From IMG/VR virus record IMGVR_UViG_3300021437_000062, positions 1 to 32,145 of that record: a stretch of DNA of 32,145 nt; one strand, written 5' to 3'. Both the position numbers and the translations under genes were made by a program. The stretch's first letter is position 1. Each line of letters starts with the position of its first letter. This DNA comes from a virus. The notes beneath the pieces are model-generated. The model was given only the letters and a program-made list of their open reading frames with translations. It had not been told where the DNA came from and did not search any database. This document shows positions 1,791-23,223 of the stretch, piece after piece.

Positions 1791-3227
1791 ATGGCAGGCT
1801 TTCGTATAGAGGGGAACACCTCTGGTCGTGTTGCAGAGGTAGATACTAGCAATAACGTACAAACAAATTTACCAACTACTGCAAACGTTGCAGGATTCGC
1901 AGTGCTATCTGCTGAGACAGATACAGGGGTAGCTACAGGTACTCGTGAAGTCCGTAAAGCTAGTATCACACAGGACTTTAGGCTTCTGACTGGTGCACCA
2001 TCGTTGTTGATGTCTAGGAACTTTCCGGGTACTACAATCAATACTGGATACTGGCATCAAATTGCTACTACTCAAACGGTAGCTCAAGCATCTAACTTAC
2101 TTACGATTAACAATAGTAACGTTACTACTCTTTCTACTGGTTCTGGTAATCAGTCTGTTCAAGCTGTACCTATTAACATGGGTGGTGCGACTGTAGTTGA
2201 GATTGACGGTTACCCCACCAATACTCCTGTTAGTAACAACGTAACGGAATGGGGTGCTTTTAACTACACTACGTTCAACGGCACTATTACTGACGGTGCA
2301 TGTTTCCGTTTTACATCAATCGGTGACTATCGTTGTGTTCTGATTACGAACTCTGTTGAGGTGCAATCTGCTGCTATCAATAGCACGACATACGCGCCTA
2401 TTAACAGTATCAAGAATTACAAAATCCGCATCTCTGATGAAGGTGCAGAATTCCTTGTAGATGACGTTCGTGTAGCTTTCGTACAGCGTCCTAGTACCTC
2501 TGGTACATCGTTGATGAATACAGCACTGTACTTGTCCGCTAGAACGTATAACGCTGCTACAGCCCCTGCAAGTGCTACTCAATTCAAGATTGGTCATGTA
2601 GCTGCATGGCTTGAAGACCAAGCACCTAACCGTGACTACATGTATACTTTGAGTGGTCAAGGTAACTACTGCGCATATACTCAAGATGGTAACGCAACGC
2701 CCGGCCCTACAGCTATTTACACGAACAACACTGCGCCTACGGCTGCTGTTCCAACGAACACCACTGCTGCTCTTGGTTCTGGTCTTGGTGGGCATTTCAC
2801 CGCTACTGCTACGGCTGCTGTCAATACTGACTTGATTATCAGTTCATATCAGGTTCCAGCTAACTCTGGTACTGTCACAGGTAAAGCTCTTTACATTAAC
2901 GGATGCTGGGTTGATACTTATGTCCAAACTGCTCTTACTGCTGGTGGCGCTAACATTGTTTGGTATCTATCTATTGGTAGTACTTCGGTATCTGAAGCAA
3001 CTGCTGAATCAGGGACAACAAAGATAAGACGTATCGTTCCTCTTGGTGTTCAATCTGTAGCTGCTGCTGCTGCTGCTTTGGTGCAGTGCACCCGTATCCA
3101 AGTTCCATTGACTGCGGTTCCTGTGTTTCCGGGTGAATTCGTTAAAGTATGCTGCCGTTATGTAGGTACTGCTGCTACAGCAGGTGCTTATGGGCATGTA
3201 ATCGGCTTTGACGGTGTATTTGAGTAA
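1791..3227 (+). CDS. virion structural protein with lectin-like domain
   Basis: 478 residues after AAGGATAAATT. Residues about 1-60 (GNTSGRVAEVDTSNNVQTNLP) form a small capping domain that recurs at the start of large phage surface proteins. Residues about 75-270 look like a concanavalin/LamG-type jelly roll: GACFRFTS, DYRCVLIT, then KNYKIRISDEGAEFLVDDV, the strand pair that ends such folds. The C-terminal third (from about residue 280) is Ala/Thr-rich and beta-prone. The protein probably sits on the tail or capsid surface and may bind carbohydrate. No catalytic motif is visible. It is followed 3 bases later by the repeat protein gene, so the two are probably translated together. Confidence 0.65.
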   Translation: MAGFRIEGNTSGRVAEVDTSNNVQTNLPTTANVAGFAVLSAETDTGVATGTREVRKASITQDFRLLTGAPSLLMSRNFPGTTINTGYWHQIATTQTVAQASNLLTINNSNVTTLSTGSGNQSVQAVPINMGGATVVEIDGYPTNTPVSNNVTEWGAFNYTTFNGTITDGACFRFTSIGDYRCVLITNSVEVQSAAINSTTYAPINSIKNYKIRISDEGAEFLVDDVRVAFVQRPSTSGTSLMNTALYLSARTYNAATAPASATQFKIGHVAAWLEDQAPNRDYMYTLSGQGNYCAYTQDGNATPGPTAIYTNNTAPTAAVPTNTTAALGSGLGGHFTATATAAVNTDLIISSYQVPANSGTVTGKALYINGCWVDTYVQTALTAGGANIVWYLSIGSTSVSEATAESGTTKIRRIVPLGVQSVAAAAAALVQCTRIQVPLTAVPVFPGEFVKVCCRYVGTAATAGAYGHVIGFDGVFE

Positions 3228-3230
3228 AGT

Positions 3231-4946
3231 ATGTCTTTACTACTGGCACTCACTACCGCCGTAGGCGGGATACAAGTAGCCTTAGTAGGACAAGCGGTAA
3301 GTCTAAGTTCAGGAAGTCTGTTAGGTACTCTACAGACTTTCCTGTTGACGAACCTCTTAAACTTAGCTCAAGGTAGTACAATATCTACTTCATCTAATGC
3401 AGTTTCTGGTTCATCTTTAGCAGGTACTCAAGGTTCTTTAAGTACCTCTTTAGTTAATACTCTATTAGGTCTCGCTGAAAGTACAGCGTCAGGAACGGTA
3501 GTAAGTGCTAACGTAGTACCTGTAGTAGGTATTCAAAGTACCACTAATCAAGGAGCAGTAACACCTAGCCAAGCTGCTGCATTGCAACTTGTAGGGATAC
3601 AGGAAGCCTTCTCTTTAGGTTCATTGACAGCTACAGCTTCTAACTCTCTTGTAGGAACAGCTTTAAGCCTTCTACAAGGGTCTTTAGCTAGCGCTATAAG
3701 CCCTGCATTGACTTCTGTATTGCAGTCTTTAGTACAAGGTACTTCAACTCCTGTACTATCTGTTAGTGCTTCAGGAAGTCAAGAAAGTACAGCACAAGGA
3801 AATACAAGCGCAGTATCTTCAGCTTTTCCTTTAGGTGCACAAGAGGCTCAAGTACAAGGGACTGCTGTAGGAACATCTAGCTTTGGCATATCAGGACAAT
3901 CTGAAACTCAAGCTCAAGGTAACTTAATAAGTACCTTAGCGGGAATCCTGTTTGGAACTCAAGAGGTACAAAATCAAGGTACTTTGCAAGCAAGTAACAT
4001 AGGGGCTATTCTAGGAATTCAGGCAGGTACATCTCAAGGTAGTGTATCTTCTGTTTCTGTAGTTAGTACAACAGGTCAAGTCCAAGTCCAAAGTCAAGGT
4101 ACGATAACGGCTCAACAAGCTGCTAACTTACAGCTTATAGGGATACAGCAGAGTATCTTACAAGGTACTTTAGTTCAATCGTTGTCTCTAGCAGTATCAA
4201 CTCAAGTACAGACTGACGCTATTGGAGTAATAGGTTCTCTAAATACCCCATTGCTGGCCTCTAACACCCTCTTAGACGCTTCAGGAACTCTTGTAGGTAC
4301 TTCTACCCTACCTTTGACTTCTCAAGCGTTACAGGGCTTTATAGGTACGTTAACGCCTGTCTCTGCGGGTGTTATTCAGCTTATAGGGTTACAGCAAGCT
4401 ATATCTCAGGGTAATGTCTTTGGGGTTACGACAAGAGCTATCACTTCTTCTAGTGCAGCTAATCAAGCTGGTTCTATAGTAGCTGCTCCTTCTAACGGGT
4501 TATCTTCTCAAGTTCAAGGCACAGTCCAAGGTTCTATACCTTTAGTAATCTCTACAGCTTCTCTAGGTACAAATACCTCTGCTGAAGCTCAAGGTATTCT
4601 AGCTAGTACCTTTATTAAGAGTATCACTGGATTACAGCAAGCTAATACATTAGGGAACATCCTTCCAACGATAGGTGCTGTTCTTACAGGGCAATACACT
4701 CAAGACCAATTAGGTAGCTTCTTAGTTCAATACAGTAAAGCCCTTCAAGGTGCTTCTATAGCATTGCAACAAGGATCTGTTACCTTTAATCTGATTACTG
4801 CTGCTATTAGTGCAATCAGGACATTGTATGTACTGCATGAAATCAGAGGGTTGCCTTTATCGCATGAAGATAGGACTTTGATAGTAGATATTGAAAATAA
4901 AACACTAGCTAATCTGGATTCTATTAGAAGCACGATAGGAATATAA
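3231..4946 (+). CDS. fibre-like repeat protein with 20-residue repeats
   Basis: 571 residues. From about residue 46 to 520 the chain is built of roughly 24 consecutive units, nearly all exactly 20 residues long, each ending in QG or a close variant (LG, SG, IG). Examples are TVVSANVVPVVGIQSTTNQG and TLQASNIGAILGIQAGTSQG. Three units are 22 long (they contain QLVGIQ, QLIGIQ or QLIGLQ) and one is 21. The units are rich in S, T, A, Q and small hydrophobics, with almost no charge. A regular period of this kind suggests a beta-solenoid or fibrous rod. The last 50 residues are different: charged and helical (LYVLHEIRGLPLSHEDR), perhaps an anchor or trimerisation end. There is no clear ribosome binding site, so translation probably depends on the upstream gene, whose stop is 3 bases away. 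A tail fibre or whisker is likely; I do not recognise a named family. Confidence 0.7.
   Translation: MSLLLALTTAVGGIQVALVGQAVSLSSGSLLGTLQTFLLTNLLNLAQGSTISTSSNAVSGSSLAGTQGSLSTSLVNTLLGLAESTASGTVVSANVVPVVGIQSTTNQGAVTPSQAAALQLVGIQEAFSLGSLTATASNSLVGTALSLLQGSLASAISPALTSVLQSLVQGTSTPVLSVSASGSQESTAQGNTSAVSSAFPLGAQEAQVQGTAVGTSSFGISGQSETQAQGNLISTLAGILFGTQEVQNQGTLQASNIGAILGIQAGTSQGSVSSVSVVSTTGQVQVQSQGTITAQQAANLQLIGIQQSILQGTLVQSLSLAVSTQVQTDAIGVIGSLNTPLLASNTLLDASGTLVGTSTLPLTSQALQGFIGTLTPVSAGVIQLIGLQQAISQGNVFGVTTRAITSSSAANQAGSIVAAPSNGLSSQVQGTVQGSIPLVISTASLGTNTSAEAQGILASTFIKSITGLQQANTLGNILPTIGAVLTGQYTQDQLGSFLVQYSKALQGASIALQQGSVTFNLITAAISAIRTLYVLHEIRGLPLSHEDRTLIVDIENKTLANLDSIRSTIGI
3369..4800 (+). repeat. degenerate 60-bp coding repeat array (20 residues per unit)
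   Basis: The 20-residue units of the repeat protein give a 60-bp period at DNA level, most visible as CAAGGT or CAAGGA codon pairs for Gln-Gly every 60 bases. The copies have diverged, so this is an old protein repeat rather than a recent tandem duplication. Confidence 0.7.
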
Positions 4947-4947
4947 C

Positions 4948-5244
4948 ATGAGTACATATGTAATAGATGGTTCAGGTAGAGCGGTTATAGACAAGGATTC
5001 TAACGCTAATCTAGATTACTCTTTGGATTGGACGAACTGGTTAGAGACAGGTGATGCTATCACAGGTCTTACAGTCTTAGTCCAAGGGGTGACGCTAGTC
5101 AGTTCTCAATACTCAGGTGCTCTAACGACTGCTTGGGTATCTGGGGGGACAGTAGGCGACCGCGCTGTAGTTACCTTCAGAATCAGTTGTAGCTCAGGTC
5201 GAATTGATGATAGAAGCATTTACCTGAAGATTAAAGATAGATAA
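4948..5244 (+). CDS. fibre or tail-surface domain protein, DDRSI-type
   Basis: 98 residues, starting one base after the stop of the repeat protein, so probably translationally coupled. The pattern is well known from phage virion genes: D-x-x-A-x-L-D-Y-x-x-D-W near the start (DSNANLDYSLDWTNWL), a central W-x-S-G-G-T-x-G (AWVSGGTVGD), and the ending G-R-x-D-D-R-S-I-x-L-K-I-K. Similar proteins are annotated as fibre-to-tail adaptors or structural proteins. The fold is probably an Ig-like beta sandwich. Placed directly after the rod protein, it could cap or attach it; that is inference. Confidence 0.65.
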   Translation: MSTYVIDGSGRAVIDKDSNANLDYSLDWTNWLETGDAITGLTVLVQGVTLVSSQYSGALTTAWVSGGTVGDRAVVTFRISCSSGRIDDRSIYLKIKDR

Positions 5245-5315: not shown

Positions 5316-6533
5316 ATGCCAGTATCAGCAAAAGGCGTAGCAAAACGTGTCGCGTATAAGAAAGAGACGACATGGGGTACTCTAGCGGGTGCCACAGGTG
5401 CTAAGTACCTTCGCCGTGTAACATCTAACTTCAATCTGAAGAAAGAAACCTACGAATCTAACGAAATTCGCACGGACTTTCAACTTGCGGACTTCCGTCA
5501 TGGTGTCCGTTCAGCCGATGGTTCGCTCTCTGGTGAATTGTCTCCCGGTTCTTATTCGGACTTCATGCAATCTGTAGTAGCTCGTGACTTCACAGCAGGT
5601 ACAGTAATTGCTCTTGGTGCAACGACGCTTTCTATCGCTGCTTCTGGTTCGCTGTTTACGTTGACCCGTAGTGCAGGTGACTGGATTGTTGACGGTATGA
5701 AAGAGGGTGACGTTATCGCTCTTACAGGTGCATCGCTTAACACTGCTAACGTATCGAATAACCTCTTGGTTTGCTCAATGACTTCTACGGTTCTTACCGT
5801 GATGCAATTGAGTGCTACCGCTATTTTCCCACAAGCTACCATCGCTACTGTTACAGTCACGGTCATTGGTAAGAAAACCTTTGCACCTTTGACTGGTCAT
5901 ACAGATGACTCGTACACCGTTGAAGAATTCTACTCTGATATTTCTCAGTCTGAAGTCTACACAGGTATGAAAGTCAAGTCGATGGCTGTCAAGTTGCCTG
6001 CTACAGGTCTTGTAACTACCGACTTCTCGTTCATGGGTAAAAACCTTGAGCAATCAGGTGGTACTCAGTACTACACAACACCTACCGCTGCTGGTACTAC
6101 AGGTATCTTCGCTGCTGTGTCGGGTGCTCTGATTCTTAACGGTACTCCTGTTGCTCTTATCACTTCGATGGACTTTACGGTTGAACGTGGTGCTGAAGCT
6201 GCTAAGGTTGTAGGTTCTAACTTTGCTGCTAACATCTTCACAGGTCGTATCAAAGTTACAGGCAATATGTCTGTGTACTTTATTGACGGTGTTGCTCGCG
6301 GCTTCTACGATACTGAAACTCCTATTTCTTTGGTTGTTGCGCTGTCTACAAGCAATGCACCTAACGCTCAAGTAGTTTCTTTCTCGTTGCCTAAAGTAAA
6401 GATTAACTCTGCTGATAAGAACGATGGTGAAATGGGTATTACTCAAAGCCATAGCTTCTCTGCTCTGTTGAACTCTGACGGTACTACAGGTAAGCAAACC
6501 AGTACAATCCAAATCCAAGATACATCTATCTAA
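5316..6533 (+). CDS. major tail tube protein
   Basis: 405 residues after AGGATAG. Near the N-terminus KKETTWGTL, RVTSNFNLKKETYES, then FRHGVRSADGSLSGELSPGSYSDF fit the Phage_tube_2-type family: a first strand with ETTWG, a bait-like S-x-E-I segment (ESNEIRTDFQ) and the G-S-L-S-G-E-L-S strand pair. These proteins stack in hexamer rings around the tape measure to form the tail tube. The middle (residues about 90-190) is an extra Thr/Ala-rich beta stretch, perhaps a surface domain, which makes the protein longer than minimal tube proteins. A strong terminator follows at 6554-6586, and a new promoter drives the next gene, as expected for an abundantly made protein. Confidence 0.85.
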   Translation: MPVSAKGVAKRVAYKKETTWGTLAGATGAKYLRRVTSNFNLKKETYESNEIRTDFQLADFRHGVRSADGSLSGELSPGSYSDFMQSVVARDFTAGTVIALGATTLSIAASGSLFTLTRSAGDWIVDGMKEGDVIALTGASLNTANVSNNLLVCSMTSTVLTVMQLSATAIFPQATIATVTVTVIGKKTFAPLTGHTDDSYTVEEFYSDISQSEVYTGMKVKSMAVKLPATGLVTTDFSFMGKNLEQSGGTQYYTTPTAAGTTGIFAAVSGALILNGTPVALITSMDFTVERGAEAAKVVGSNFAANIFTGRIKVTGNMSVYFIDGVARGFYDTETPISLVVALSTSNAPNAQVVSFSLPKVKINSADKNDGEMGITQSHSFSALLNSDGTTGKQTSTIQIQDTSI

Positions 6534-6553
6534 CGTATAGATTTTATCTTTAA

Positions 6554-6586
6554 GCTCTCCTTGGTTAACCCCTTGGAGGGCTTTTT
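6554..6586 (+). terminator. rho-independent terminator after the tail tube gene
   Basis: GCTCTCC (6554-6560) pairs with GGAGGGC (6575-6581), with one G-U pair, and is followed by TTTTT. It should end most transcripts of the abundant tube protein. Confidence 0.8.
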
Positions 6587-6600
6587 ATCGTCTATAGGTA

Positions 6601-6629
6601 TTGCTTTTTGACCTTATTGATGTTATAAT
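6601..6629 (+). promoter_or_regulatory. sigma70-type extended -10 promoter
   Basis: TGTTATAAT (6621-6629) is a perfect extended -10 (TG-n-TATAAT). A weak -35, TTGCTT (6601-6606), lies 17 bases upstream of the -10 hexamer. It follows the tube terminator and precedes the tail chaperone gene, so it would set a separate level for chaperone and tape measure expression. Confidence 0.65.
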
Positions 6630-6693
6630 AGAACTTAGGGCTAGGATTATATTATACGATTCTAGGGTAATCAATTTATATAAAGGATAAATA

Positions 6694-7104
6694 ATGGCAG
6701 GCTTAGACCTATCTAAAGTTAATGTATCGGCTCTTTCTGAAGTCGGACATGAATTTGAACTTTCGCTACCTGAAGTGGGTACGAAAATGGATGCTTTCAT
6801 CAAAGTACGAGGGGCTAACTCTAAAGTAGCTTTGAAGTTCCAGAATAGACGCTATAACGAACAGCAAGTCAAAGAGAACATTGCTAAGAAGCGTGGCAAA
6901 GAAGTTGAACCTATGCTGATGGAAGATTTGGATAAATTCCTTGTTGACCTAGCGGTTAATCGGACTATCAGTTGGCGCGGTATTACAGACGATGGTGAAG
7001 ATGTACCATTCACCCCTGAGAACGCAGAACGTGTCTATAGTGAACATACTTGGATTCGTGACGCAGTGATACAGGAGTCGAACCTAGTCGGTAACTTTCT
7101 CTGA
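6694..7104 (+). CDS. tail assembly chaperone, short form (gpG-like)
   Basis: 136 residues after AAAGGATAAATA. It lies between the tail tube and tape measure genes, the standard place of tail assembly chaperones. The sequence has a beta N-terminal part (EFELSLPEVG, AFIKVRGANSKVALKF) and a helical C-terminal part ending IQESNLVGNFL. Chaperones of this type hold the tape measure protein before the tube polymerises, and usually exist in a short and a frameshifted long form. The end of this gene overlaps an open second frame that has no start codon of its own and carries a typical chaperone extension, so I read it as the short form. Family membership rests on position and architecture. Confidence 0.75.
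   Translation: MAGLDLSKVNVSALSEVGHEFELSLPEVGTKMDAFIKVRGANSKVALKFQNRRYNEQQVKENIAKKRGKEVEPMLMEDLDKFLVDLAVNRTISWRGITDDGEDVPFTPENAERVYSEHTWIRDAVIQESNLVGNFL
7096..7104 (+). other. probable programmed +1 frameshift site (TTT CTC TGA)
   Basis: Near the end of the short chaperone frame the codons read AAC TTT CTC TGA. A tRNA-Phe on TTT can slip one base forward onto TTC with good pairing; the next codons TCT GAT GAG then enter the open second frame. A stop codon only one codon away would favour pausing. A -2 shift would reach the same frame, but I see no good slippery run for it. Inferred, not proven. Confidence 0.6.
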
Positions 7105-7507
7105 TGAGGACATAATACAGGCTAAGGCTTACGCAGAGCAAGAATTTAGGCTATCAGCAAAGCAAAAAGATGGAAGTTCTTATAGAGAACAACTAGAGAA
7201 CGTTGAACGAATCACAAGACAAGTTCCAAAAGAACTTCAGGATTTGGTTGAACTTCCTCAGAGTTTACAGCAATGCTGGCGGTGGTTTCTAGAGCTAAAT
7301 GCAACAAGAGAGTGCTCTATGGGGGTATCAGCAATTTCCCATAGAGAAATACAAGCGTATTTCGACTTGTATTATATAGAGTATAACCCTGAAGAAGTGC
7401 AAATGCTTCGGATGTTCGATAGCGTAGCTGTTGCTTATATGAATGAGCAAAGTGCAAAAGACGCTAAAGAATCCGAAAAGAAATCACAAAATAAATCAAG
7501 GGATTAA
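7100..7507 (+). CDS. tail assembly chaperone, frameshifted C-terminal extension (gpT-like)
   Basis: This frame is open from 7088 to 7507 but has no ATG or GTG before the domain begins. A TTG at 7244 lacks a ribosome binding site and lies inside the protein-like stretch. From the frameshift site it reads SDEDIIQAKAYAEQEF and continues into a domain with LQQCWRWFLELNATRECS, ISHREIQAYFDLY and LRMFDSVAV, the W-x-x-F-L-x-L plus E-I-x-A-Y-F-D-L pattern of chaperone extensions. Joined to the upstream frame it gives a product of about 270 residues. The long form recruits the tape measure protein. A strong hairpin overlaps the stop codon, and the tape measure gene follows 41 bases later. Confidence 0.75.
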   Translation, partial: SDEDIIQAKAYAEQEFRLSAKQKDGSSYREQLENVERITRQVPKELQDLVELPQSLQQCWRWFLELNATRECSMGVSAISHREIQAYFDLYYIEYNPEEVQMLRMFDSVAVAYMNEQSAKDAKESEKKSQNKSRD

Positions 7508-7534
7508 GGCAGCTTCGGCTGCCTTTGTTCTTTG
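7506..7534 (+). terminator. UUCG-loop hairpin after the chaperone gene
   Basis: AAGGCAGC (7506-7513) and GCTGCCTT (7518-7525) form a perfect 8-bp stem closed by the very stable TTCG tetraloop, followed by TGTTCTTTG. It overlaps the chaperone stop codon. The U tract is interrupted, so it probably lowers rather than abolishes read-through into the tape measure gene, and may protect the upstream mRNA. Confidence 0.7.
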
Positions 7535-7548
7535 TAAAGGATGGAATA

Positions 7549-10500
7549 ATGGATTTACAGACATTAAAATTTACAGTAGATACAAGTGACCTGTCCAAGG
7601 CTATAGGTACGCTTAATGAGCTTAAATCCGCTATTACAAGCGTAGACAAAGCAAACAGTGAAGCAAAGACAAAAGCTGCTCAAGCGGCTAAAGCTCAAGC
7701 TGACCAAGTAACAGCAGAAGAAAGGGCGTATACTGCTCTTGAGAAAGCTGAAGAAAAGAAGCGCAACGAGAGCAACAAGACGACTAAGACGTTAGAAGAT
7801 AACGCTGCTAAAGTCGAAAAGATTATGAAATTTGAGGCTGACCGCCTTGAGTTTATGAGAGAGGAATACACCAGAGGGAATTCTGGAGTATTGTCACGGA
7901 TACGCGCTTTAGGTGCTCTTACAGACCAAGAGAAGGCTCTTGGGGACACCTTAGATAAGCAAAGAGAAATCCTTGGTGGAGATTCGTTAGATAAGTCCAC
8001 AGGTGTATTGAAGGTACTAGGGAACCAAGCTGCTGTTACAGCTAAATCCCTTGAATTATTGAACGGTGGTTTTGGTCTTACATCAGCACAAGCTAATCAG
8101 CTTGCTCTTGGTATCGTGCGTGTTACTAACGCAGCTAAGGATGATGGAAGAACTATAGATGCTACCAATGCTCAAGTAAACACCTTAAAAGCTAGTTTCA
8201 TTGAATTAGCTAGTGCTCAGAACGCTAGAACCGCTGCTATTAAAATGCACGATAAAGCAGAGAGAGACAGTGCCAATGCTCTCGCTTTTGTTAATAAAGA
8301 GATGGAACGTATCACGTTTGCATTTCAGATGGTCAACGAAGAGCTTGGTAGAACTACAGCGAATGGTCTGTACAAGTTCGAGCAGATGCTTAAAATCTCT
8401 GGAAAGAGTATCCAAGAGCAATCATCTTTACTTGAGGATTACAAGAATAAAATCATAGCTGTTAATAAAGCTAGAGATGCAGGTCAAGACAAAGGACCAA
8501 ATACAGGTTATATTACTCGTGCTGTCGGCCCTCAGATTACTGACATATTCGTAGGTCTATCTACAGGGCAATCACCGTTGACTGTATTGATGCAACAAGG
8601 TGGACAGTTGCGTGACCAATTCGGCATGATGGGGATAGCCTCTAAAGATATGGCGGGCATCATGCGGGCCTCTGCTGCGTCTATGGTGGATTCCATTAAG
8701 GGTGTAGGCATAGCGATGACTTCGCTTGTTGTAGGAGTCATCAAGGATGCACCTAAGTTCATGGGTGGGGTTGTGTCCAGTATCACAGGAATGGATGCTG
8801 CTTTCACCAAGTTCCATGATAGCCTTGTAGCTAACTCTAATGTATCTACAGAAGCAATTAGACGTATCAGTCTTGCCTTCTCGGCTTTAAGAGTTAGTGT
8901 TGGATTTATTGCAGTAGCTTCTGTAATTGCTCTTGCAGCAATGGCGTATGAAATGTATCATATAGCTCAAGCAGGTGCAGAATTAGGAAAGACATTAAGT
9001 TATAGCAACGGTGAATTAGGTGTTACTAAGCAGTACAGTATAGACCTTGCTAAGTCCTTGACTTACACAGGTAACTCTGCTTCTAGCTTGATTGCTATAT
9101 TTACTGAAATGGCTGCTACGACGAAAATATCGTCCGAGTACATGGCTAAATTAGGTGTAACTGCTCTTGAATCTGCTAAGTACACAGGACAATCAGCTAG
9201 TGACTTAGTTAAAGCATTCGCTGCTATTAAAGATGCTCCGTTTGATTCTTTAGTTAAATTAGGCATGGCTTCAGGTCGTGTATCTCAAGCTATCCTTGAT
9301 GAAGTCCATGCTCTTGAGCTTAAAGGTAAGCGTTTAGAGGCTGTAGCATTAGCCTCTGAAGAGTATCTCAGAGTACAGAATGATACTACTTCTGTAGCTA
9401 AAGGCAATACATCTGTATTTGATAAAGCATGGATAGCTACTAAAGATTCTATCGTAGCCACTACTGGTAGTTTAGTAGAGTTTGGTACTAATTGGGCTAA
9501 GTTTGAGATAATCCTAGCAGTTCATCAGATTTCTTTGATGAAAGATGCGTGGGATTCTGTAGCTAAATCAATTAAAGATGCTGCTGAGAATATAAGTAAT
9601 TTTAATAATTTAAAGACCCCTGAAGGACTTAGAACAACTACCCGTAGAGATGGTCGTTCAAGTAGACTCGGGGGATATGGTCTAAATGGTCAACCTACAA
9701 GTCAGTACGATGGCTCTAATCCTATCGTAAAAGGATTCTTACAAGACAACGGTATCATTGCTAGTGACAACAGAGAGCAAGCCGCTGGGCTTCGCGCTAA
9801 GGTTCAACAAGATAATAACACTGCGCAGTACATTCAGAACAACAAAGAAAAGACTGAAGCTACAGCACGTTGGGCTACTGAATCTATTAAGTACATGAGT
9901 GCAGTTGAGAAAGCTGAGAAAGAACTGAATAGAATTCAAGGGCTTTATAACGAAGATGTTAAGAAAGGTGCATTATCAGCATTAGCTCAAGCAGAAGCTG
10001 ACAAGACTTTACGCGGTGCTCAACGTGAATACGCTGCTGCTAAGTACGAAGCCAATGCTGCGGGTCTCCCTAAGTTCTCTAATATCAAAGAGAAAGAGAT
10101 TATAGATGAAAACGTACAAATGTACGAAAGAGAACGTGCTGCTTTAGCTAAAGCTGAAGGAGACCAACTTGACATTCTAAAGACTAGATATGACCAAGGC
10201 TTACTACTTCAGACTGAGTACGAAGCTAGACGTAGAGATATTATCCAGACATTCGGTGAAGCTAGATTAGCGTATATTCAGACTGAAGCTAACGTAGGTG
10301 TAAGGGATTACGAAGCGTACTTCGCTAAGTTGAATGACGTGTTCTACGCTAGGAAGAAAGCTATCGACGAAGGGTACTCTTTGAACCCTGAGCATCATGC
10401 AGCCTTGATGAGAGGTCTTAAAGATGAGTTTGATAAGCTAGCTGAAGTTGCTCTTAAAGGACAGAGGGATTTAGCAAATAGATTATCTCTTGAGAAAGTA

Positions 10501-13500
10501 GGTCTAGCTAACACCATCAGTACAGATGTGTTGCAATCGTATGCTGAATACGGTAAGCATCTCAAAGAGATAAATGAAGCGATGCGTGAGTACAATAAGC
10601 AAGAAGAAAAGCGCACTCTGGATTATAAAAATAACAGAGATGCGCAGCTTGCTGAAGTATGGGCTACCCCTTTACAGACTGCTATTATTAAAGCACAGAC
10701 GGAAGCTACTAAGAAGTACACTGAAGCTATCGCAGAGATGGACAAACGTCTAGCTCTTGCTGTGAAGAACAGACAAGCTATGGCTACAGTTAAGGATGAT
10801 TGGGGCAATACTTTAGATAATACAGGTTCTCAAGCATATCAAGATGCTCTTAAAGTAGAACAAGAAGCGAGAATAGCTGTTAATAAAATAGTAGCTGACC
10901 AACGTGCAGCACAAGAAATGTCTGCTACGGATACTGTAGTTCTTTATGAACAAAAAGAACGTAGAGCTTTTGCTGATGAAATTTCTGGGGCTATCGTTAC
11001 AGGTCTATTTGAAGGCGGAAAGGCCGGTTCTAAGAAGCTTAGAGATACTATCATAGCTGAACTCAAGAAGCCTGTTACTTTAGTTGTACAAGCGCTTGTA
11101 AACACCATAATGGGGCCAAATGGTTTAATAGGCAATTTACTTGGCGGCAGTGGTTCAGGCGGGTCTGGTGGACAAGGCGGGGGTTCTCTGGGGAACTCTC
11201 TCATCGGTTCATTAGTGAATAGGTATATCGGTGGCGGTAGTTCAGGTGGGTTCCTTCCCGGACTTGTTCAGGGTGCTGGAAACATGTTCGGTGGTGGTTT
11301 CGCTGATGTATCTGCTATGACTGCTTCCTTTGTAGACAGTGGTATGACGTACTCTGCTGCACTAGCTTCTGCTGGTAACGCTGTAGGAGGATTTGCTGGG
11401 ACAATGGGCTCTCTTGTTGGCGGTATGTCTGCTCCATTTGCCACTTTAGGTACAGCCTTAGAGGGTGGTATTGCTGCTGCTGGTGGATTTGCTTCTGTAC
11501 TCGGTGCTGCTATTCCTATCATCGGTGGGATTATACTTATTGCTTCTGCTCTTGGGTTATTTGACAATGAACAAGGCTTCAAGTTCAATAACGCTGGTAC
11601 AAAAGGACAACGCGACCCTAGTCGAATCGTAGATTCCTCTTTAGGTAAGTTTGAAATTGGTGGTGACTTTGAATTGAAAACATTCAAGCAATTCACAACT
11701 AAAGTTCAAGCTCTTGATACCTATATAGTCGATAATTTACTTTCACCTGAAGCATTGGCTAAGGTTAAAGAGAATATCCAAAACATAGGTGACACTGGAT
11801 GGTACGGTGCTAACTCAAAGGATGAGTTTTCTAAGAATCTAGAAGCTGCTTCTAAAGAATTCTTACAGAATCGTTATAGCACAGCGTTTGATGAAATCAA
11901 TAAAACGATAGCAGGTAAAATTAGAACATTTGAAGGTACAGCAGACGAGCTTATAGCTTTCTTGCAAGGAACCTTTACAGTTCTAGCAGCTATTGATAAT
12001 GCAATGCCTACGCTTAAAAACATCTTTGGGCAAGTAATTAACCTAGATGATGTTATTGGGTATCAGAAGGAAGGTGAACAGCTTTCAGACACCTTTAAAC
12101 GCCTTATGGGGGTATTCCAAGGGACTAACCTGTTGGTTAATGCTGTCTTTGGTGGAGACATGATTAAGGTATTTGGTGCTGTAGGTCTTGCTGGTACTAA
12201 AGCTCGTGAAGATTTGGTTAAAGCTGCTGGTGGGATTGACGCTTTCAATAGTTCATTATCATTCTTCTTACAGCACTTCTACACAGCTAAAGAGCAAGGT
12301 ACGCTTGGTCAGAAGATGTCTCAAAAGGCTCTTGATGCAGGATTCGAGGCTATAGGGGTTAAGACGCCTAAAGACCGAGATGAATTCAGAAAGATGGTTG
12401 AAGGGATTGACCTTACTACAGAAGCGGGTAAAAAGCAATACGCTGCAATGATGGCACTTGCTCCTGCTATGGTGGCAGTTACTCAAGCGGCTGAAGATGC
12501 TAAAGCTTATTTCTTACAGCATTACTACTCTGACTCTGAACGTGCTGCTTTGAATAAAGCTCAAGCGTTGAAAGATGTTAATGCAGAATTTGCTAGACTT
12601 GGTATAGCCGTTCCTAAATCCAAAGCTGAATTTAGGAAGTTCATAGAAGGTATCGACCAGACTACAGAAGCTGGAAAGAATCTGTATCATGACATGATTC
12701 TCCTTGCTCCTGCATTTGATTTACTTTCTGATTCTGTTACTTCTTTTGCCAATATGACTAAAGATAATGTAACGAGTCTCTTTCAGAATGTAATCGCTTC
12801 TAGTGTATCTGCTGATGACGCTAGACAGAAAGGTGCTGAAGCTGCTGGTAAGCAATTCTTCGATGCAATGCAAGGACAGATGCTTAACGTAATTGGTGAC
12901 ATGATTGTCAAGAACATCATTGAACCAATGACTGCTCAATTACTTCCTCAAATTACTGCTAGTGCAGTTGAAGTAAGTACAGAGAGTATTATAGCGGGAA
13001 CTAATCTTAGCCTAGGTGGTGAAGTTGCTGGTGCTAATATAGCTGCTGGTGGTGTGGCTGCTGGTGCTAATTTAGTTACAGGGGGCTCTGACGCTGGACT
13101 GAAAGTAGCTATGGGCGGTGCTGTTGCAGCATTTACTTTAGATGTAGCGGTTAAGCAGATTGTAGCTACTATTGATGTCATGACTAAGATATTTCAAAGT
13201 CCTGAATTCAAGACAGCTTTCCAAGCGTACACTGCTGCTATGGGAACCTTTGCTGCTAGTATGTACAATGCTTCTGCAAGTATCCCCGGATTTACTCCAT
13301 ACAATCCTAATAGTAACTCAGGGGGTGCTGGAGGTAGTTCTACAGCTTCTACTGCTGCTAAAACAGCTTATGATATTCTTGTCGCTGCTATAAATAAGCA
13401 GAAAGATTTAGCTAATGCACAGCTTAAATTGATTACAGCTATTTATGATATTACCATAGGTGCTATCAAACAGCTTACTAATACAGTTGACCCTGTTAAG

Positions 13501-14121
13501 CAACAGCAATATCTAGACGCTAGACGATTCATTACTAGTGCTGCTGGTGACGTTAAGAACGGTATTCTTCCTGATTCTACAGCATACAAAGACGCAGTAG
13601 CTGCTGCTGTATCTGGTGTATCTGATGCTACCTACGCAAGTAAAGTAGATGAAGAAAGAGCCAAGATGCTTCTAGCGAATGAGCTTCAAGGTATAGCTGA
13701 TGTTCTTGGCCCTCAGAAAACAGGCTTAGAACAGCAGATAGCTTATCTTGATGGTTTGTTGACTACAGCTAAAGAGCAACTTGACGCTATGACAAATACA
13801 GCTACGGCTATCATGTCATTAGCTCAAGCTATCGCTAACTGGACTACAGTAACAGGACAGTTGTTACCTAATGCACCTACGTTCACTATGCCTACGTTTA
13901 CGACCTTCTCAGGGGGTTCTAACGGTCTTGGTGGTGCAGGTTCAGGTGGTTCAGCCTCTAGTTCTGTAGGTGACGTAGTGAATGAGTTACAGCAGTTGAG
14001 AACTGAAGTTACTCTGCTTCGTGCTGAAGTACGCGCTGATGTTACGGCTAATATCAAAACATCTAAGATACTTGAGAGAGTGTCACCAGACGGAACAAGT
14101 CTGTATACACACGCTGTATAA
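7549..14121 (+). CDS. tail tape measure protein
   Basis: 2190 residues. I chose ATG 7549 (after AAAGGATGGAAT) over an upstream TTG. The opening DLQTLKFTVDTSDLSKAIG and the Ala/Lys/Glu-rich helices that follow are typical of tape measure proteins, which run inside the tail tube, set its length and help eject DNA. Around residue 322-353 lies the family signature TRAVGPQITDIFVGLSTG followed by QSPLTVLMQQGG. Hydrophobic stretches occur near residues 447-470 and 1314-1340 (AAIPIIGGIILIASALGLF), candidates for insertion into the host membrane. Glycine-rich segments near residues 1200-1240 separate helical parts. Two related units of about 70 residues, 82 residues apart, lie at 12262-12474 and 12511-12720. 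At roughly 1.5 angstrom per residue the length would suit a tail of about 300 nm; that is an estimate from the usual rule. Confidence 0.95.
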   Translation: MDLQTLKFTVDTSDLSKAIGTLNELKSAITSVDKANSEAKTKAAQAAKAQADQVTAEERAYTALEKAEEKKRNESNKTTKTLEDNAAKVEKIMKFEADRLEFMREEYTRGNSGVLSRIRALGALTDQEKALGDTLDKQREILGGDSLDKSTGVLKVLGNQAAVTAKSLELLNGGFGLTSAQANQLALGIVRVTNAAKDDGRTIDATNAQVNTLKASFIELASAQNARTAAIKMHDKAERDSANALAFVNKEMERITFAFQMVNEELGRTTANGLYKFEQMLKISGKSIQEQSSLLEDYKNKIIAVNKARDAGQDKGPNTGYITRAVGPQITDIFVGLSTGQSPLTVLMQQGGQLRDQFGMMGIASKDMAGIMRASAASMVDSIKGVGIAMTSLVVGVIKDAPKFMGGVVSSITGMDAAFTKFHDSLVANSNVSTEAIRRISLAFSALRVSVGFIAVASVIALAAMAYEMYHIAQAGAELGKTLSYSNGELGVTKQYSIDLAKSLTYTGNSASSLIAIFTEMAATTKISSEYMAKLGVTALESAKYTGQSASDLVKAFAAIKDAPFDSLVKLGMASGRVSQAILDEVHALELKGKRLEAVALASEEYLRVQNDTTSVAKGNTSVFDKAWIATKDSIVATTGSLVEFGTNWAKFEIILAVHQISLMKDAWDSVAKSIKDAAENISNFNNLKTPEGLRTTTRRDGRSSRLGGYGLNGQPTSQYDGSNPIVKGFLQDNGIIASDNREQAAGLRAKVQQDNNTAQYIQNNKEKTEATARWATESIKYMSAVEKAEKELNRIQGLYNEDVKKGALSALAQAEADKTLRGAQREYAAAKYEANAAGLPKFSNIKEKEIIDENVQMYERERAALAKAEGDQLDILKTRYDQGLLLQTEYEARRRDIIQTFGEARLAYIQTEANVGVRDYEAYFAKLNDVFYARKKAIDEGYSLNPEHHAALMRGLKDEFDKLAEVALKGQRDLANRLSLEKVGLANTISTDVLQSYAEYGKHLKEINEAMREYNKQEEKRTLDYKNNRDAQLAEVWATPLQTAIIKAQTEATKKYTEAIAEMDKRLALAVKNRQAMATVKDDWGNTLDNTGSQAYQDALKVEQEARIAVNKIVADQRAAQEMSATDTVVLYEQKERRAFADEISGAIVTGLFEGGKAGSKKLRDTIIAELKKPVTLVVQALVNTIMGPNGLIGNLLGGSGSGGSGGQGGGSLGNSLIGSLVNRYIGGGSSGGFLPGLVQGAGNMFGGGFADVSAMTASFVDSGMTYSAALASAGNAVGGFAGTMGSLVGGMSAPFATLGTALEGGIAAAGGFASVLGAAIPIIGGIILIASALGLFDNEQGFKFNNAGTKGQRDPSRIVDSSLGKFEIGGDFELKTFKQFTTKVQALDTYIVDNLLSPEALAKVKENIQNIGDTGWYGANSKDEFSKNLEAASKEFLQNRYSTAFDEINKTIAGKIRTFEGTADELIAFLQGTFTVLAAIDNAMPTLKNIFGQVINLDDVIGYQKEGEQLSDTFKRLMGVFQGTNLLVNAVFGGDMIKVFGAVGLAGTKAREDLVKAAGGIDAFNSSLSFFLQHFYTAKEQGTLGQKMSQKALDAGFEAIGVKTPKDRDEFRKMVEGIDLTTEAGKKQYAAMMALAPAMVAVTQAAEDAKAYFLQHYYSDSERAALNKAQALKDVNAEFARLGIAVPKSKAEFRKFIEGIDQTTEAGKNLYHDMILLAPAFDLLSDSVTSFANMTKDNVTSLFQNVIASSVSADDARQKGAEAAGKQFFDAMQGQMLNVIGDMIVKNIIEPMTAQLLPQITASAVEVSTESIIAGTNLSLGGEVAGANIAAGGVAAGANLVTGGSDAGLKVAMGGAVAAFTLDVAVKQIVATIDVMTKIFQSPEFKTAFQAYTAAMGTFAASMYNASASIPGFTPYNPNSNSGGAGGSSTASTAAKTAYDILVAAINKQKDLANAQLKLITAIYDITIGAIKQLTNTVDPVKQQQYLDARRFITSAAGDVKNGILPDSTAYKDAVAAAVSGVSDATYASKVDEERAKMLLANELQGIADVLGPQKTGLEQQIAYLDGLLTTAKEQLDAMTNTATAIMSLAQAIANWTTVTGQLLPNAPTFTMPTFTTFSGGSNGLGGAGSGGSASSSVGDVVNELQQLRTEVTLLRAEVRADVTANIKTSKILERVSPDGTSLYTHAV
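12262..12720 (+). repeat. tandem protein repeat within the tape measure gene
   Basis: Two homologous units, each starting FLQH(F/Y)Y, carrying P-K-(D/S)-(R/K)-x-E-F-R-K at their centre, then (V/I)EGID-x-TTEAGK, and ending LAPA. They are 246 bases (82 residues) apart. The DNA has diverged, so this is an old duplication. Confidence 0.75.
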
Positions 14122-14187: not shown

Positions 14188-15090
14188 ATGAAAGTAATAA
14201 AACCTGTTACCTTTGTCAGCACTATGCTAACGTCAACTACAGCCGTAGAATCGACCGCTGACTACGCTGCTGGCACGACATACGCTCTAGGCAATAGAGT
14301 TATTTACAATACAAAGAAGTACGAAAGCCTACAGAATACTAACGTAGGGCATACACCCGATACTAATCCAACATGGTGGTTGTATGTAGGTAGTAGCAAT
14401 AAGTACGCTCTGTTCGATGGACAGGCTAGTTCACCTACGACAGGGACTTCCTCTATCGTCACTACATTGACCTCTGGTGTAGCTTTTGATTCTCTAGCGG
14501 TTATCAATTCATTCTGTGTCTCTGTTAGGCTAGTCATCACTGACTCATTAGCAGGTAACGCTGTAGTGTACGATAAAACAATAGGTCTATCAGGGGCTAG
14601 TATAACATCTTGGTATGATTACTTCTATGTATCAGCTTTGGATGTAAGAACACAGATTATCTTCGATAGTCTACCACAAAGCACAGGCTATGTGCATACA
14701 CTTACTTTCACTTCTGCTACAGGTAACTCTGTCAGTATAGGCGAAGTTCTATTCGGAACAATGTCGGATTTAGGGGCTACTCAGTACGGTGTTACAGCAG
14801 GTATCATTGATTACTCTGTAAAAACTACAGATGCTTATGGTATCACTACGTTCACACAAAGAAATTACAGTAAACGAATAGAAGCTAAAGTACAGCTTAA
14901 TAACACTCAGCTTAATAGAGTACAGACCTTGATGTATTCATTAAGAGCAAAGCCTTGTGTATGGATTGCAGCAGATGACCCTTTACTTCAAGAACCCTTG
15001 ATTGTATATGGATTCTACAAGGATTTTAGTACAGACATTGCATATCCATCGTACTCCATGTGCAGTATTTCTATAGAAGGTTTAATATAA
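14188..15090 (+). CDS. distal tail protein with chitin-binding-like module
   Basis: 300 residues after AAAGGATAAT. Residues about 25-70 (YAAGTTYALGNRVIYNTKKY, then the aromatic PTWWLY) resemble a small carbohydrate-binding module of the CBM5/12 type, with the A-x-G-x-x-Y-x-x-G-x-x-V-x-Y pattern and exposed Trp/Tyr. The C-terminal part (NYSKRIEAKV, LRAKPCVWIAADD, LIVYGFYKDF, SISIEGL at the end) is a conserved block in the tail gene just after the tape measure in several phage groups. The protein is probably part of the tail tip or baseplate. Its specific role is not established. Confidence 0.7.
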   Translation: MKVIKPVTFVSTMLTSTTAVESTADYAAGTTYALGNRVIYNTKKYESLQNTNVGHTPDTNPTWWLYVGSSNKYALFDGQASSPTTGTSSIVTTLTSGVAFDSLAVINSFCVSVRLVITDSLAGNAVVYDKTIGLSGASITSWYDYFYVSALDVRTQIIFDSLPQSTGYVHTLTFTSATGNSVSIGEVLFGTMSDLGATQYGVTAGIIDYSVKTTDAYGITTFTQRNYSKRIEAKVQLNNTQLNRVQTLMYSLRAKPCVWIAADDPLLQEPLIVYGFYKDFSTDIAYPSYSMCSISIEGLI

Positions 15091-19175: not shown

Positions 19176-21854
19176 TTACATACATGCTACACACTCTCCT
19201 TTTGCTGCTTGGACTCCTGCTTGTGTATATACATAGTACAGTCCAAGGATATTTGGATTATTAAATGCCTCCGTATGAACTTCAGCAATCCAAGACGGAG
19301 ATTCATCTGAGGCAAAGAATAGGTTTAAAGATTGCCACTGGTCAATAAATGGTTTTCGAGAGGATGCTAGCCTGATTATACTTTTTTGGTTTATTTCAAA
19401 AGCAGTTTTAAAAACCTCTTTCTCATCCTCTGTCAGCCAATCTACATGTTGTACCGAGCCTACTTTATCCGTAACACTCTGAATATTCTTTTTTGAATAG
19501 ACTCCTTTCTTTTTCATCAGTGCGAGCAGAATAGGATTAATTCTATCCATATCTCCTCCTGCTGTATTTTGAGTATATATCATTGCAGGGTCAGGATTAA
19601 TTCCTTCAGAGATTCCCCCCATTAATAAAGCTGTACTTTTAGTAGGCGCAATTGCAATCCTGTGTGTGTTTCTTACCGATAGTCCTGTGCACCACTCTGG
19701 TTCACCCAATTTTTCTGCCATATCTAAACTAGCTCTTTTTGATTCTTTATCAATATGGGATGCAATTTCTTGACTAAGCAGGTGAGCTTCAAATGACTCA
19801 AAAGGTAGCATTTTAGATTGCAAGTACGTATGGAAACCACACTGACCAAGTCCAAGTGCTCTACCCTTTTTAGTGAAATCTACAGCTTTATTTAATCCAT
19901 TAATATTTTTTGCCTTTTGAATAAAATCCTCTGCAATACAATCAAGGAATATCGTAGCCCAATACACGGAGTCAGTGTTTTTCCACTCGTCCCATTTTGC
20001 TACATTCATTGAAGATAGAACACAAGTGAATGTATGATTTTCATCTGAAAATAATGTTATCTCATCACAGTTTCCTGTAAGTATCCCATTAAATACAGCC
20101 ATATGTTTTTTAGGTTCTGTAAAACAATAGGTCGGGCTTTCTATCTTATTATATACCTTTTGAGATACAGTTACAAATTTTTCGGAATTTCTTTGTGGTC
20201 GTCTTTTTGTAAACATTAAACGTTTTGGACAAAAGCCAAGTTCAGCCAAATGGAAAAGTCCTGACGATGACACAAGAAGTCTAAAAACCTCTTTACAATG
20301 GTAATCTTTTAGCCCTCCGGTTCCATCATTAGCAGGTAGCTTACGAATTCCTTCTTCTTCAAACATAGATATTTTAGATTGAACACCCATTGTTTGAAGC
20401 ATATATTGAATTTCTTTTAGAAATTTTTCATTTACGTTTGCTATTTGTAAAGACTCATTTATACCATTTTTACAAATATGTCCATCCCCATCACAAAACC
20501 CTGCAAACCATTCTAATCTGGAATTTACTGTATAACTAGTATTTGGAACAAAGAATTTTTCTTTTAGATTACTTGCATATCCGTAAATTCTAGTTTGTTC
20601 TGGTTGCACAGTCCAGTTGGTTACTGATTTTATGTGCTCTTTTAATTTAATCTTTTCATGATATAGGTATATTCTGCTTTTAGTATTATCTACAAAACAT
20701 CCATCAGCCGAATAAAAACCATTATCATATGCATACTCTAGTATATCTTCACCATCAATTATAGGCAAATTAAACTTTACAAGTTTATCACCAATCTGTA
20801 AGTCTTTAGCGGGAATACAGATAGGATTACTTCCATATTTTTTTACAACATAAAATTTATGATACTCTGTACAGTCTAATGATTGTCCTGCACTTGTTTG
20901 TACTGTAATTAGCTCAGAATTTTCAGATGTTTTTTTAACTTGAACATTTGACCACTCATTTCCATTCCATACGTTCACAAATTTATTTTCCAATAATCCT
21001 ATTTTTATATTTCCTTTATCAGTAAGGAGTAGTGTATCAGGGGAAACACATAAATTACTTCCCTTGACTTTCAAATTATTTTTGATATATGCTTCTGGTC
21101 TATTATTATTTATTTTATCTATAAAGCAGAAATATCCCCTACCATGAACCATTTTTAGTTTCATAGCCTTTTTAAATCTGCGAATTGATTCCGTATCGTT
21201 AGAATTACAGAGATTTATAAAATCATTTGTGACAATCCACCCAATATTTACATCATCAGGTTCTTCTAGCGCATAGTCTGCAAGTTCATCAAAATCTCCG
21301 TGGTCTATTTCAAGATAGCCAGCCCACGCACCTCTCCTAGAAGTACCCTGCGCCACATCTCTCATTGCTTGAACGTAGGATTTAAATACAGGGAGAACGC
21401 CGGACGCTTTTCCACCAGATTTGATTTTACTTCCTCTAGGTCTAATATTCCCTAAGTATCCAGAAGTACCAAAACCATTTTTAGTTAGCATAGCGGTTTC
21501 ATGAAGTGTACCATAAAAGCCGTCTACACTATCTGAAATTTCTGCACCGCTGCATGAAACTGACATTCCTCTATCTGTCCCTGTATTTGCAAGCACAGGT
21601 GTACTAGGGCTTAGCCATCCGTTCCAAAGCAAGTTAAAAAATTTATTTTCTGCTTCAGGATACTCATTTTTAACATATTCTGCGGCAGTTTTAGCAATCC
21701 GTTCAAATTGCCCTCTGACAGATTTGCCGTTAGTATCATACTCGTATTTTTCTTGGAAAAGTTGATACCCTGCTGTAGTATACCACTCAGGAAGATTCCC
21801 TTGTTCTTGAAGTTCTTTTCTTTTAGCACTGAGCTTTTTATATAAATTATCCAT
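19176..21854 (-). CDS. nrdA: ribonucleotide reductase class I alpha subunit with intein
   Basis: 892 residues from ATG 21854, which overlaps the beta stop as TAATG and follows GGAAGGTAGAC. A slightly earlier ATG at 21869 lacks a ribosome binding site. The enzyme turns ribonucleotides into deoxyribonucleotides. Visible sites are SPSTPVLANTGT, the first redox Cys in SVSCSG (residue 101), the thiyl-radical Cys in SNLC-DEI (residue 596; the N-x-C-x-E set is complete only after splicing), the second redox Cys in FTCVLS (611), the radical-relay Tyr pair in LYYVY (873-874), and a C-terminal C-x-x-C (GECVACM, 888-891). There is no ATP-cone domain at the N-terminus. A 327-residue intein interrupts the gene at 20070-21050. 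Without it the enzyme is 565 residues, short for class I alpha. The gene is much richer in AT than its non-RNR neighbours. Confidence 0.93.
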   Translation of the reverse strand: MDNLYKKLSAKRKELQEQGNLPEWYTTAGYQLFQEKYEYDTNGKSVRGQFERIAKTAAEYVKNEYPEAENKFFNLLWNGWLSPSTPVLANTGTDRGMSVSCSGAEISDSVDGFYGTLHETAMLTKNGFGTSGYLGNIRPRGSKIKSGGKASGVLPVFKSYVQAMRDVAQGTSRRGAWAGYLEIDHGDFDELADYALEEPDDVNIGWIVTNDFINLCNSNDTESIRRFKKAMKLKMVHGRGYFCFIDKINNNRPEAYIKNNLKVKGSNLCVSPDTLLLTDKGNIKIGLLENKFVNVWNGNEWSNVQVKKTSENSELITVQTSAGQSLDCTEYHKFYVVKKYGSNPICIPAKDLQIGDKLVKFNLPIIDGEDILEYAYDNGFYSADGCFVDNTKSRIYLYHEKIKLKEHIKSVTNWTVQPEQTRIYGYASNLKEKFFVPNTSYTVNSRLEWFAGFCDGDGHICKNGINESLQIANVNEKFLKEIQYMLQTMGVQSKISMFEEEGIRKLPANDGTGGLKDYHCKEVFRLLVSSSGLFHLAELGFCPKRLMFTKRRPQRNSEKFVTVSQKVYNKIESPTYCFTEPKKHMAVFNGILTGNCDEITLFSDENHTFTCVLSSMNVAKWDEWKNTDSVYWATIFLDCIAEDFIQKAKNINGLNKAVDFTKKGRALGLGQCGFHTYLQSKMLPFESFEAHLLSQEIASHIDKESKRASLDMAEKLGEPEWCTGLSVRNTHRIAIAPTKSTALLMGGISEGINPDPAMIYTQNTAGGDMDRINPILLALMKKKGVYSKKNIQSVTDKVGSVQHVDWLTEDEKEVFKTAFEINQKSIIRLASSRKPFIDQWQSLNLFFASDESPSWIAEVHTEAFNNPNILGLYYVYTQAGVQAAKGECVACM
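20070..21050 (-). mobile_element. intein with LAGLIDADG homing endonuclease in the RNR alpha gene
   Basis: 327 residues inserted between SNL and CDEI. Splicing blocks: N-terminal Cys in CVSPDTLLLTDKG, block B with TEYH (T-x-x-H), block F (TYCFTEPKKHMAVF) and the end NGILTGN before Cys+1. The penultimate residue is Gly, where most inteins have His. Two LAGLIDADG-type motifs are visible, YDNGFYSADG and LEWFAGFCDGDGH. The endonuclease would spread the intein by cutting intein-less copies of the gene. The Cys after the intein is also the catalytic Cys of the enzyme. Confidence 0.92.
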
Positions 21855-22819
21855 TAGTCTACCTTCCATTCAAATTCATTTTCATCCCATTCTCTATGGT
21901 ATTGTGAGCCAAGTCCACTGAAAAAGTCATTAAAATTATAGTCATTAATTGCCTTGTAAAATGTATCAGCAATAGGATTGTATGTTACCTCAAAAATAGG
22001 TCTTATATCTAAGTTTTTTAAACATTCATTTATTCTCGACTGAACAAAATTTTCTAATTGGTGTGAAGTTATACCATCAATTTTCCCTTTAGAGAACATT
22101 AATTTGATAATTTCAACTTCATGTTCATATATTTTATTTGCTGTTTCAATTATCAAATTATGTATTTTTTGAAGTTCATCTTCGTTTGGATTAATTCTAC
22201 TTACGAGATACTTATAAGACCATGCCCCTGCGATACTGTGGATATTTTCATCTCTCAGAGAGAAATTGATTCCCCTAACAACATGCATTAATTTATTTTT
22301 TCCTTGCGATTGATAGTGCTTTAAAAATGCGAAGCTACTATAAAGGATAACTCCTTCAACCATTGAAAAAGCGGCAAGAGAAATTAAATCATCTTTATGA
22401 GAGACTATCTGTCCAATATGTTCTATTCTATTTTTTAGAATAGGATTATCCTCATAAGACATAAAAAACTCTTTATTATTTAAATGCAGTAGCTCATTTA
22501 TTCGATTATAGAATGGGGCATGAACTGCAAGTTCAAACATGCTAAATACAGAGGCCATCCTGTGAAATTCACTTCCGTCAAATATTTGTTTATATCTAGA
22601 CCCCCAATATTCAGAACCAGCATGTGTTTCATACAATGAAAATAACTTCAATGTCGTTATGACAGCATGTTTTTCTGCTTCGGTAAAATTAACTAGAATA
22701 TCTTGTATATCTTTTTCAACTTTTGGCTCCTTCCAAGACCAAAAGATTTTTAATTGCTCATCAGCGAATTCAATTGGCTCTTTTCTCTCCGATATAGGAA
22801 TTAAATGCTTATCAATCAT
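21854..22819 (-). CDS. nrdB: ribonucleotide reductase class I beta subunit
   Basis: 321 residues. The beta subunit makes and stores the radical that the alpha subunit uses. Expected metal-site residues: Glu64 (LYETHAG) at the first ligand position, Glu96 and His100 (FELAVHAPFY), radical Tyr104, Glu155 (MVEGVILY), Glu191 and His194 (RDENIH). Tyr lies four residues after His, as in Escherichia coli. The Glu-to-His spacing in FELAVH is four, not the usual three (E-x-x-H). The start overlaps the upstream gene as ATGA and the stop overlaps the alpha start as TAATG, so the three genes are coupled. High AT content. The end lacks the long acidic tail of some beta proteins but keeps an aromatic, acidic end (DENEFEWKVD) that probably binds alpha. 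Confidence 0.9.
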   Translation of the reverse strand: MIDKHLIPISERKEPIEFADEQLKIFWSWKEPKVEKDIQDILVNFTEAEKHAVITTLKLFSLYETHAGSEYWGSRYKQIFDGSEFHRMASVFSMFELAVHAPFYNRINELLHLNNKEFFMSYEDNPILKNRIEHIGQIVSHKDDLISLAAFSMVEGVILYSSFAFLKHYQSQGKNKLMHVVRGINFSLRDENIHSIAGAWSYKYLVSRINPNEDELQKIHNLIIETANKIYEHEVEIIKLMFSKGKIDGITSHQLENFVQSRINECLKNLDIRPIFEVTYNPIADTFYKAINDYNFNDFFSGLGSQYHREWDENEFEWKVD

Positions 22820-23148: not shown

Positions 23149-23161
23149 GCTTCTCCTTTGT

Positions 23162-23218: not shown

Positions 23219-23223
23219 ATGCT

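Follow-up and report, generated by a model that had tools for sequence, protein, structure and literature searches.

The bead-rope type of virion fibre is already known from the Ralstonia podophage GP4 (PDB 8JOU), whose structure study reportedly describes fibre I as an 'elongated rope protein' that connects five gp80 dimers. Pfam names the bead (PF23140, 'Podophage GP4 fiber I protein gp80') and the adaptor (PF23148, 'Podophage GP4 fiber-tail adaptor protein gp77'); no Pfam model matches the rope proteins that we tested. Neck fibres made of bead chains, for which no rope has been described, are known from the Anabaena myophage A-1(L): its gp80-gp82 build five flexible fibres, each about 100 nm long, on a neck ring of 15-fold symmetry, where gp81 trimers are the beads, gp82 the anchor and gp80 the tip, in a ratio of about 14:1:1 (PMC10966104). 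In phage LSH1, mass spectrometry identified gp34-gp36 as a three-gene virion module, in which gp34 combines an adhesin domain with a badly predicted region that puzzled the authors, gp35 matches 8JOU_g and gp36 has an Ig fold; the same authors likened a protein of the myophage Slicko01 to LSH1 gp34 (PMC13243795).

Here we analyse a glycine-rich repeat protein encoded in a 32,145-base IMG/VR virus record with siphovirus-like tail genes (IMGVR_UViG_3300021437_000062, hereafter the window; Table 1). Based on the observed repeat, the gene order, a common C-terminal motif and a correlation between bead family and repeat period, we propose a physical complex in which this protein is probably the rope of a GP4-type beads-on-a-rope virion fibre, here in a siphophage.

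Table 1 Features of the window that bear on the proposed fibre (positions are those of the window).
Feature	Position	Strand	Evidence and remarks
Candidate bead, 149 aa	965..1414	+	phrog_644, E 1.5e-7; family followed by period-20 proteins
Candidate payload adhesin, 478 aa	1791..3227	+	ConA-like lectin/glucanase fold in the N-terminal half
Repeat ORF	3231..4946	+	ATG start, 571 aa; proposed rope of the bead-chain fibre, between bead-type and Gp77 genes
N-terminal MSLLLALT of the repeat protein	3231..3254	+	Shared, with little or no variation, by the repeat proteins encoded after members of the 478-aa lectin-fold family
Tandem units	3315..4775	+	aa 29-515; 24 units, of which twenty have 20 aa, three have 22 and one has 21
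22-residue unit no. 1	3555..3620	+	AVTPSQAAALQLVGIQEAFSLG
22-residue unit no. 2	4101..4166	+	TITAQQAANLQLIGIQQSILQG
22-residue unit no. 3	4347..4412	+	TLTPVSAGVIQLIGLQQAISQG
Sole 21-residue unit	4533..4595	+	Unit cutting after G
9-residue repeats RTLYVLHEI RGLPLSHED RTLIVDIEN	4818..4898	+	aa 530-556; may dock the rope on the Gp77 adaptor
Gp77-like Ig-type adaptor	4948..5244	+	PF23148 E 1.9e-23; 8jou_D E 3.4e-8; proposed collar anchoring the rope
Tail tube protein	5316..6533	+	PF18906 E 7.4e-40; context, marks a long-tailed phage
Tail assembly chaperone	from 6694		Family match
Tape measure, 2198 aa	from 7525		Family match

Repeat architecture

A first-pass annotation made from the sequence alone had read the protein as about 24 exact 20-residue repeats, interrupted by three 22-residue units with a common core and one 21-residue unit, and carrying almost no charge. 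Our measurements bear this out. The unit boundaries are given by cutting after G at residues 28, 48, 68 and so on to 515; all 24 units end in G, and QG ends 13 of the twenty 20-residue units. Glycines spaced by 20-22 residues form a chain of 25 members, while the longest such chain in 5000 shuffled versions of the protein had 12, so that none of them came close. The autocorrelation reaches z=8.1 at lag 20 and z=7.7 at lag 40, and no other lag up to 63 comes near these values. By direct count, 13 of the 487 residues in the repeat region are charged, and the composition of the protein is biased to S/L/T/A/G/Q. The consensus of the 20-residue unit has G20 in all copies, Q19 and a second G at position 12 in 13 of 20 each, and hydrophobic residues at positions 2 and 10 in 85-90%.

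The three 22-residue units all contain QL(V/I)G(I/L)Q, the core that had been pointed out earlier, and constitute one repeat family at the DNA level (D1). They belong to a subtype of the form TxTPxxA..(Q)L(T/I/V)G(I/Q/L), and a 'TP...QLTGQ' unit is also found in other phages (L070, L073, L075), so that these units, which the first-pass annotation had guessed to be regular kinks or loops, represent a repeat subtype of wider occurrence. The repeat copies are old, being mostly 60-78% identical in their DNA, which indicates that selection, rather than recent duplication, has kept the unit length strict. The period-20 repeats end at residue 515, and the final 55 or so residues carry a different, charged repeat of 9 residues, which the first-pass annotation missed.

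Homology searches and structure prediction

We found no family in Pfam, PHROG or the PDB that matches the repeat protein, in line with the first-pass annotation, which knew of no named family with this repeat; the Pfam and PHROG searches, run up to E=1, returned no described repeat or solenoid family either. Whole-protein searches confirmed no homologue among viral contigs and gave one chance match only (E 1) among phages. The PDB matches 9hjm_F, 3g14_A, 36za, 6njk, 7tfm and 8d02 were rejected as weak or compositional, with unconvincing alignments. An AlphaFold2 monomer model, built on a shallow alignment of five sequences and hence weak evidence, reached a pLDDT of 40.5 and a pTM of 0.25, with short strands scattered between residues 70 and 260.

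These results bear on the fold that the first-pass annotation had suggested, a beta-solenoid or trimeric fibre to be checked by structure prediction. Such a self-standing rod, for instance the shaft of a side fibre, would carry no beads, and the Gp77-like protein would anchor its end. Beta-solenoid repeats of about 20 residues exist, for example of the filamentous haemagglutinin type, and beta-helix coils of this length are usual; the window repeat resembles them in its strict period near 20, its richness in glycine, its near lack of charge and its alternating hydrophobic residues, and the short strands of the model also speak for a fold of this kind. However, the protein has neither a solenoid family match nor a confident solenoid model, and its exact unit length goes with the family of the upstream bead gene (see below), a dependence that would not be expected of a self-contained fold. 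We consider the free-standing rod unlikely, whereas the other part of the earlier suggestion, that this is a fibre protein, is supported by the synteny with Gp77 and by a bead-rope-adaptor cassette that is found in many phages. For a rope that folds only on its partners, low AlphaFold2 confidence in their absence would be the expected outcome.

Since the repeats are too diverged for normal homology search, the analysis was moved to the neighbouring genes.

The bead-rope-adaptor cassette

The gene directly 3' of the repeat gene encodes the Gp77-like protein. In the Burkholderia phage BcepMigl, which is near GP4, gp59 is the Gp77 homologue and gp56 is Gp80 (140 aa; PF23140; 8jou_a, E 2.5e-59, present as 10 chains), and gp57, which lies between gp56 and gp59, is rich in glycine and repeats with a period of 20. 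The ten Gp80 chains in 8JOU agree with the five gp80 dimers that GP4 fibre I is said to contain. A Lessievirus repeat protein searched against the PDB matched no chain convincingly, and none of 8JOU; a rope modelled without sequence would escape such a search. Among the IMG/VR loci with Gp77, the order Gp80, period-20 protein, Gp77 is found wherever the contig extends far enough, in dozens of metagenomic phages, as it is in the GP4-like Burkholderia phages. The window gene lies between a bead-type gene and a Gp77 gene and thus occupies the rope position.

A further family match of the Gp77-like protein, to phrog_4137, covers the final 90 of the 349 positions of that family. This suggests that some phages have the adaptor joined to a preceding domain, which could be a rope.

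The window has in common with the GP4 system and its near relatives a Gp77 homologue, which here is encoded beside the repeat gene, and C-terminal 9-residue blocks of a similar kind, described below. On the other hand, its phage has siphovirus-like tail genes, its cassette includes a lectin-fold gene, and its protein has 24 repeats as opposed to 7-11 in Lessieviruses (counted by eye). It also differs in the bead: none of the window genes scanned at positions 278-15090 matches PF23140, and a phrog_644 protein is present instead, separated from the rope gene by the lectin-fold gene and a small ORF. Our proposal is weakest on the identity of the bead. The phrog_644 protein is of the right place and size to be a putative bead, and its comparison with Gp80 in hhalign gave the best cross-family score, which is not clearly above reversed controls; as Gp80 homologues, neither phrog_644 nor phrog_3758, a further bead-type family, obtained hhalign scores above the controls.

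The AlphaFold2 model of the 478-residue lectin-fold protein has a pLDDT of 76.6, and its Foldseek matches include the receptor-binding domain of TM4 gp23. The family of this protein was found at 42 viral loci, and at most of them the next ORF starts with MSLLLALT and encodes a repeat protein of period 20-23 that is otherwise unrelated in sequence. Within this N-terminus M1-L5 are invariant and A6 and L7 are conserved to at least 90%, and the repeats that stand behind it are unrelated to each other. At locus L094, a 394-kb viral contig, a lectin-fold homologue adjoins two long ORFs with collagen-like GPQG repeats (periods 15-18) and there is no MSLLLALT rope. Locus L057 encodes an 887-residue rope (2106-4769) with a ConA-like lectin domain inside the repeats (Laminin_G_3, residues 293-403), as if the adhesin were built in.

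The neighbourhood also bears on where such a fibre sits. A decoration bound to the head or neck, that is, a head fibre and not a tail or collar fibre, would suit the labels of the bead-type families phrog_240, phrog_3758 and phrog_24741, which are those of head ('head and packaging') or virion structural proteins, and the podovirus-like loci in which the cassette lies between the portal gene and the scaffold or capsid genes; where Gp77 is missing, the rope could well be attached at another site. We nevertheless hold this placement to be quite improbable for the window, as Pfam and the GP4 structure put Gp80 in fibre I and make Gp77 the fibre-tail adaptor, and as the window genes adjoin the tail tube gene.

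Relatives of the window's tail tube gene were considered as carriers of the same cassette and were rejected: in L002-L006, L008, L009, L012 and L016 the stretch from terminator to tube does not contain it. The cassette thus looks like an insertion in the lineage of the window. When L006-L016 are compared with positions 5316-14121 of the window, the tube gene is common, homologues of the chaperone and the tape measure are found where the contigs reach, and the lectin-rope-Gp77 block is absent.

Elsewhere in the window, a 300-residue protein encoded after the tape measure (14188-15090) has a strong match to phrog_6278 and a weak one, under the cut-off, to a chitin-type module (CBM_5_12, E 5.2e-5), and the minus strand at 19176-24141 encodes the large and small subunits of ribonucleotide reductase and a protein of a ThyX- or ThyA-type thymidylate synthase family.

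Related modules in other phages

Our model also accounts for the badly predicted region of LSH1 gp34-type proteins. In Slicko01, the region behind the adhesin domains has a period of exactly 20 (z 10.1). Of the two genes that follow, one encodes a 107-residue protein at the position of gp36 and the other a 121-residue protein with a weak match to the Gp80 profile (E 1.9e-4, among nine proteins). The LSH1 module and its Slicko01 relative resemble the proposed fibre in having an adhesin with a poorly predicted region (of period 20 in Slicko01), a Gp80-like dimer and an Ig-fold protein; they differ in that rope and adhesin domain form one protein and that the Gp77 profile misses the Ig-type protein, and their authors proposed no rope. 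The A-1(L) fibre is similar in being a chain of beads present in many copies, but no repeat backbone protein is described for it (PMC10966104), and the repeat protein in the window cassette argues for a different build.

Charged blocks at the C-terminus

Repeat proteins of this type end in tandem 9-residue blocks of the form R-x-h-x-[IV]-x-x-E-x, in up to six copies. A 9-residue matrix trained on 14 rope proteins, the window protein being left out, scores the window protein at 29.2 bits at residues 530-556, a value that none of 5000 shuffles reaches. Across 3552 ORFs the best unrelated score is 8.8 bits, and everything that scores above the window protein is a rope. In a census of loci, the motif exceeds 8 bits at 21 of the 26 loci with Gp77, compared to none of the 79 loci without it. 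A later sample drawn by Gp80 holds one locus, L227, that has the motif and no Gp77 match in its stretch, and in this sample the tails of Lessievirus type often fall slightly under the threshold. This co-occurrence suggests that the blocks may dock the rope on Gp77.

Bead family and repeat period

We then asked which period follows which bead. A search with one single bead sequence found three loci only; the Gp80 sample, drawn by bead sequence alone, comprises 69 distinct loci, for each of which the next three ORFs were checked. A strongly periodic ORF lies downstream at 31 of these loci, at a lag of exactly 20 in 27 cases, compared to 6 of 172 upstream ORFs. The next three ORFs of the other 38 loci contain no strong repeat, and many of them show a weak peak at 20. 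The phrog_644 family, found in at least 578 stretches, has period-20 proteins downstream, while phrog_3758, a third bead-type family of similar size, is followed by period-21 proteins. Many phrog_644 loci hold two tandem copies of the gene, with an ORF of about 64 residues between the copies at L161, L170, L176 and L187.

Where a strong repeat is present, the period is 20 at 52 of 56 Gp80 loci, 20 at 71 and 22 at 8 of 82 phrog_644 loci, and 21 at 33 of 48 phrog_3758 loci. The 186 ropes fall into 11 single-linkage clusters, joined partly through composition, and the association of bead family with period (Fisher P 1e-17) comes from related loci, so that it does not represent that many independent events. 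A split of the period by bead family is what would be predicted if the bead footprint set the repeat length, and an extended segment of 20 residues, at about 6.6 nm, would lie within the range of a small bead dimer.

It could also be argued that the protein is a low-complexity linker that drifts fast, with a period left over from duplication that serves no repeated binding, and both its low AlphaFold2 confidence and its biased composition are compatible with this. The age of the copies, with a period held by selection, speaks against such a linker, as does the recurrence of exactly 20 in proteins with very different repeat sequences, and we give this explanation very little credence.

Discussion

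Taken as the rope of a bead-chain fibre, the repeat protein would work as follows. Its C-terminal blocks would fix the chain to a ring of the Gp77-like Ig adaptor on the neck or tail, and each of the 24 units, probably extended as a strand, would hold a single small bead, either a monomer or a dimer. The bead would most likely be the phrog_644 protein. The lectin-fold protein would probably be a carbohydrate-binding payload that meets the host surface, a role that we liken to that of the lyase-like domains of LSH1 and Slicko01 and of the lectin domain inside the L057 rope. The length of the repeat would be set by the footprint of the bead, as the correlation between bead and period supports, and the number of repeats would set the length of the fibre.

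Gene pairs of this bead-and-rope kind are present in hundreds of phages. In Pfam, PHROG and the literature searched, the GP4 structure paper lying outside that search, the rope has no named family, and neither a 20-residue rule nor C-terminal blocks are described for it. We tentatively extend the reading of the window protein to a wider one, to which we give somewhat less than even chances: the repeat protein would be a molecular ruler, and it would belong to a widespread unnamed class of ropes in podophages, siphophages and myophages, in which the unit of 20, 21 or 22 residues is the footprint of one bead, the type of bead fixes the length of the unit, the number of units fixes the length of the fibre and the 9-residue C-terminal tag plugs into a Gp77 collar.

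If the window protein is such a rope, the rope of the recently seen flexible bead-chain phage fibres would have both a gene identity and a sequence rule, and the bead-period rule is simple and directly testable. The rope reading would also explain the failure of structure prediction on such proteins, a puzzle stated for LSH1 (PMC13243795), and many unannotated glycine-rich repeat proteins of phages would become interpretable.
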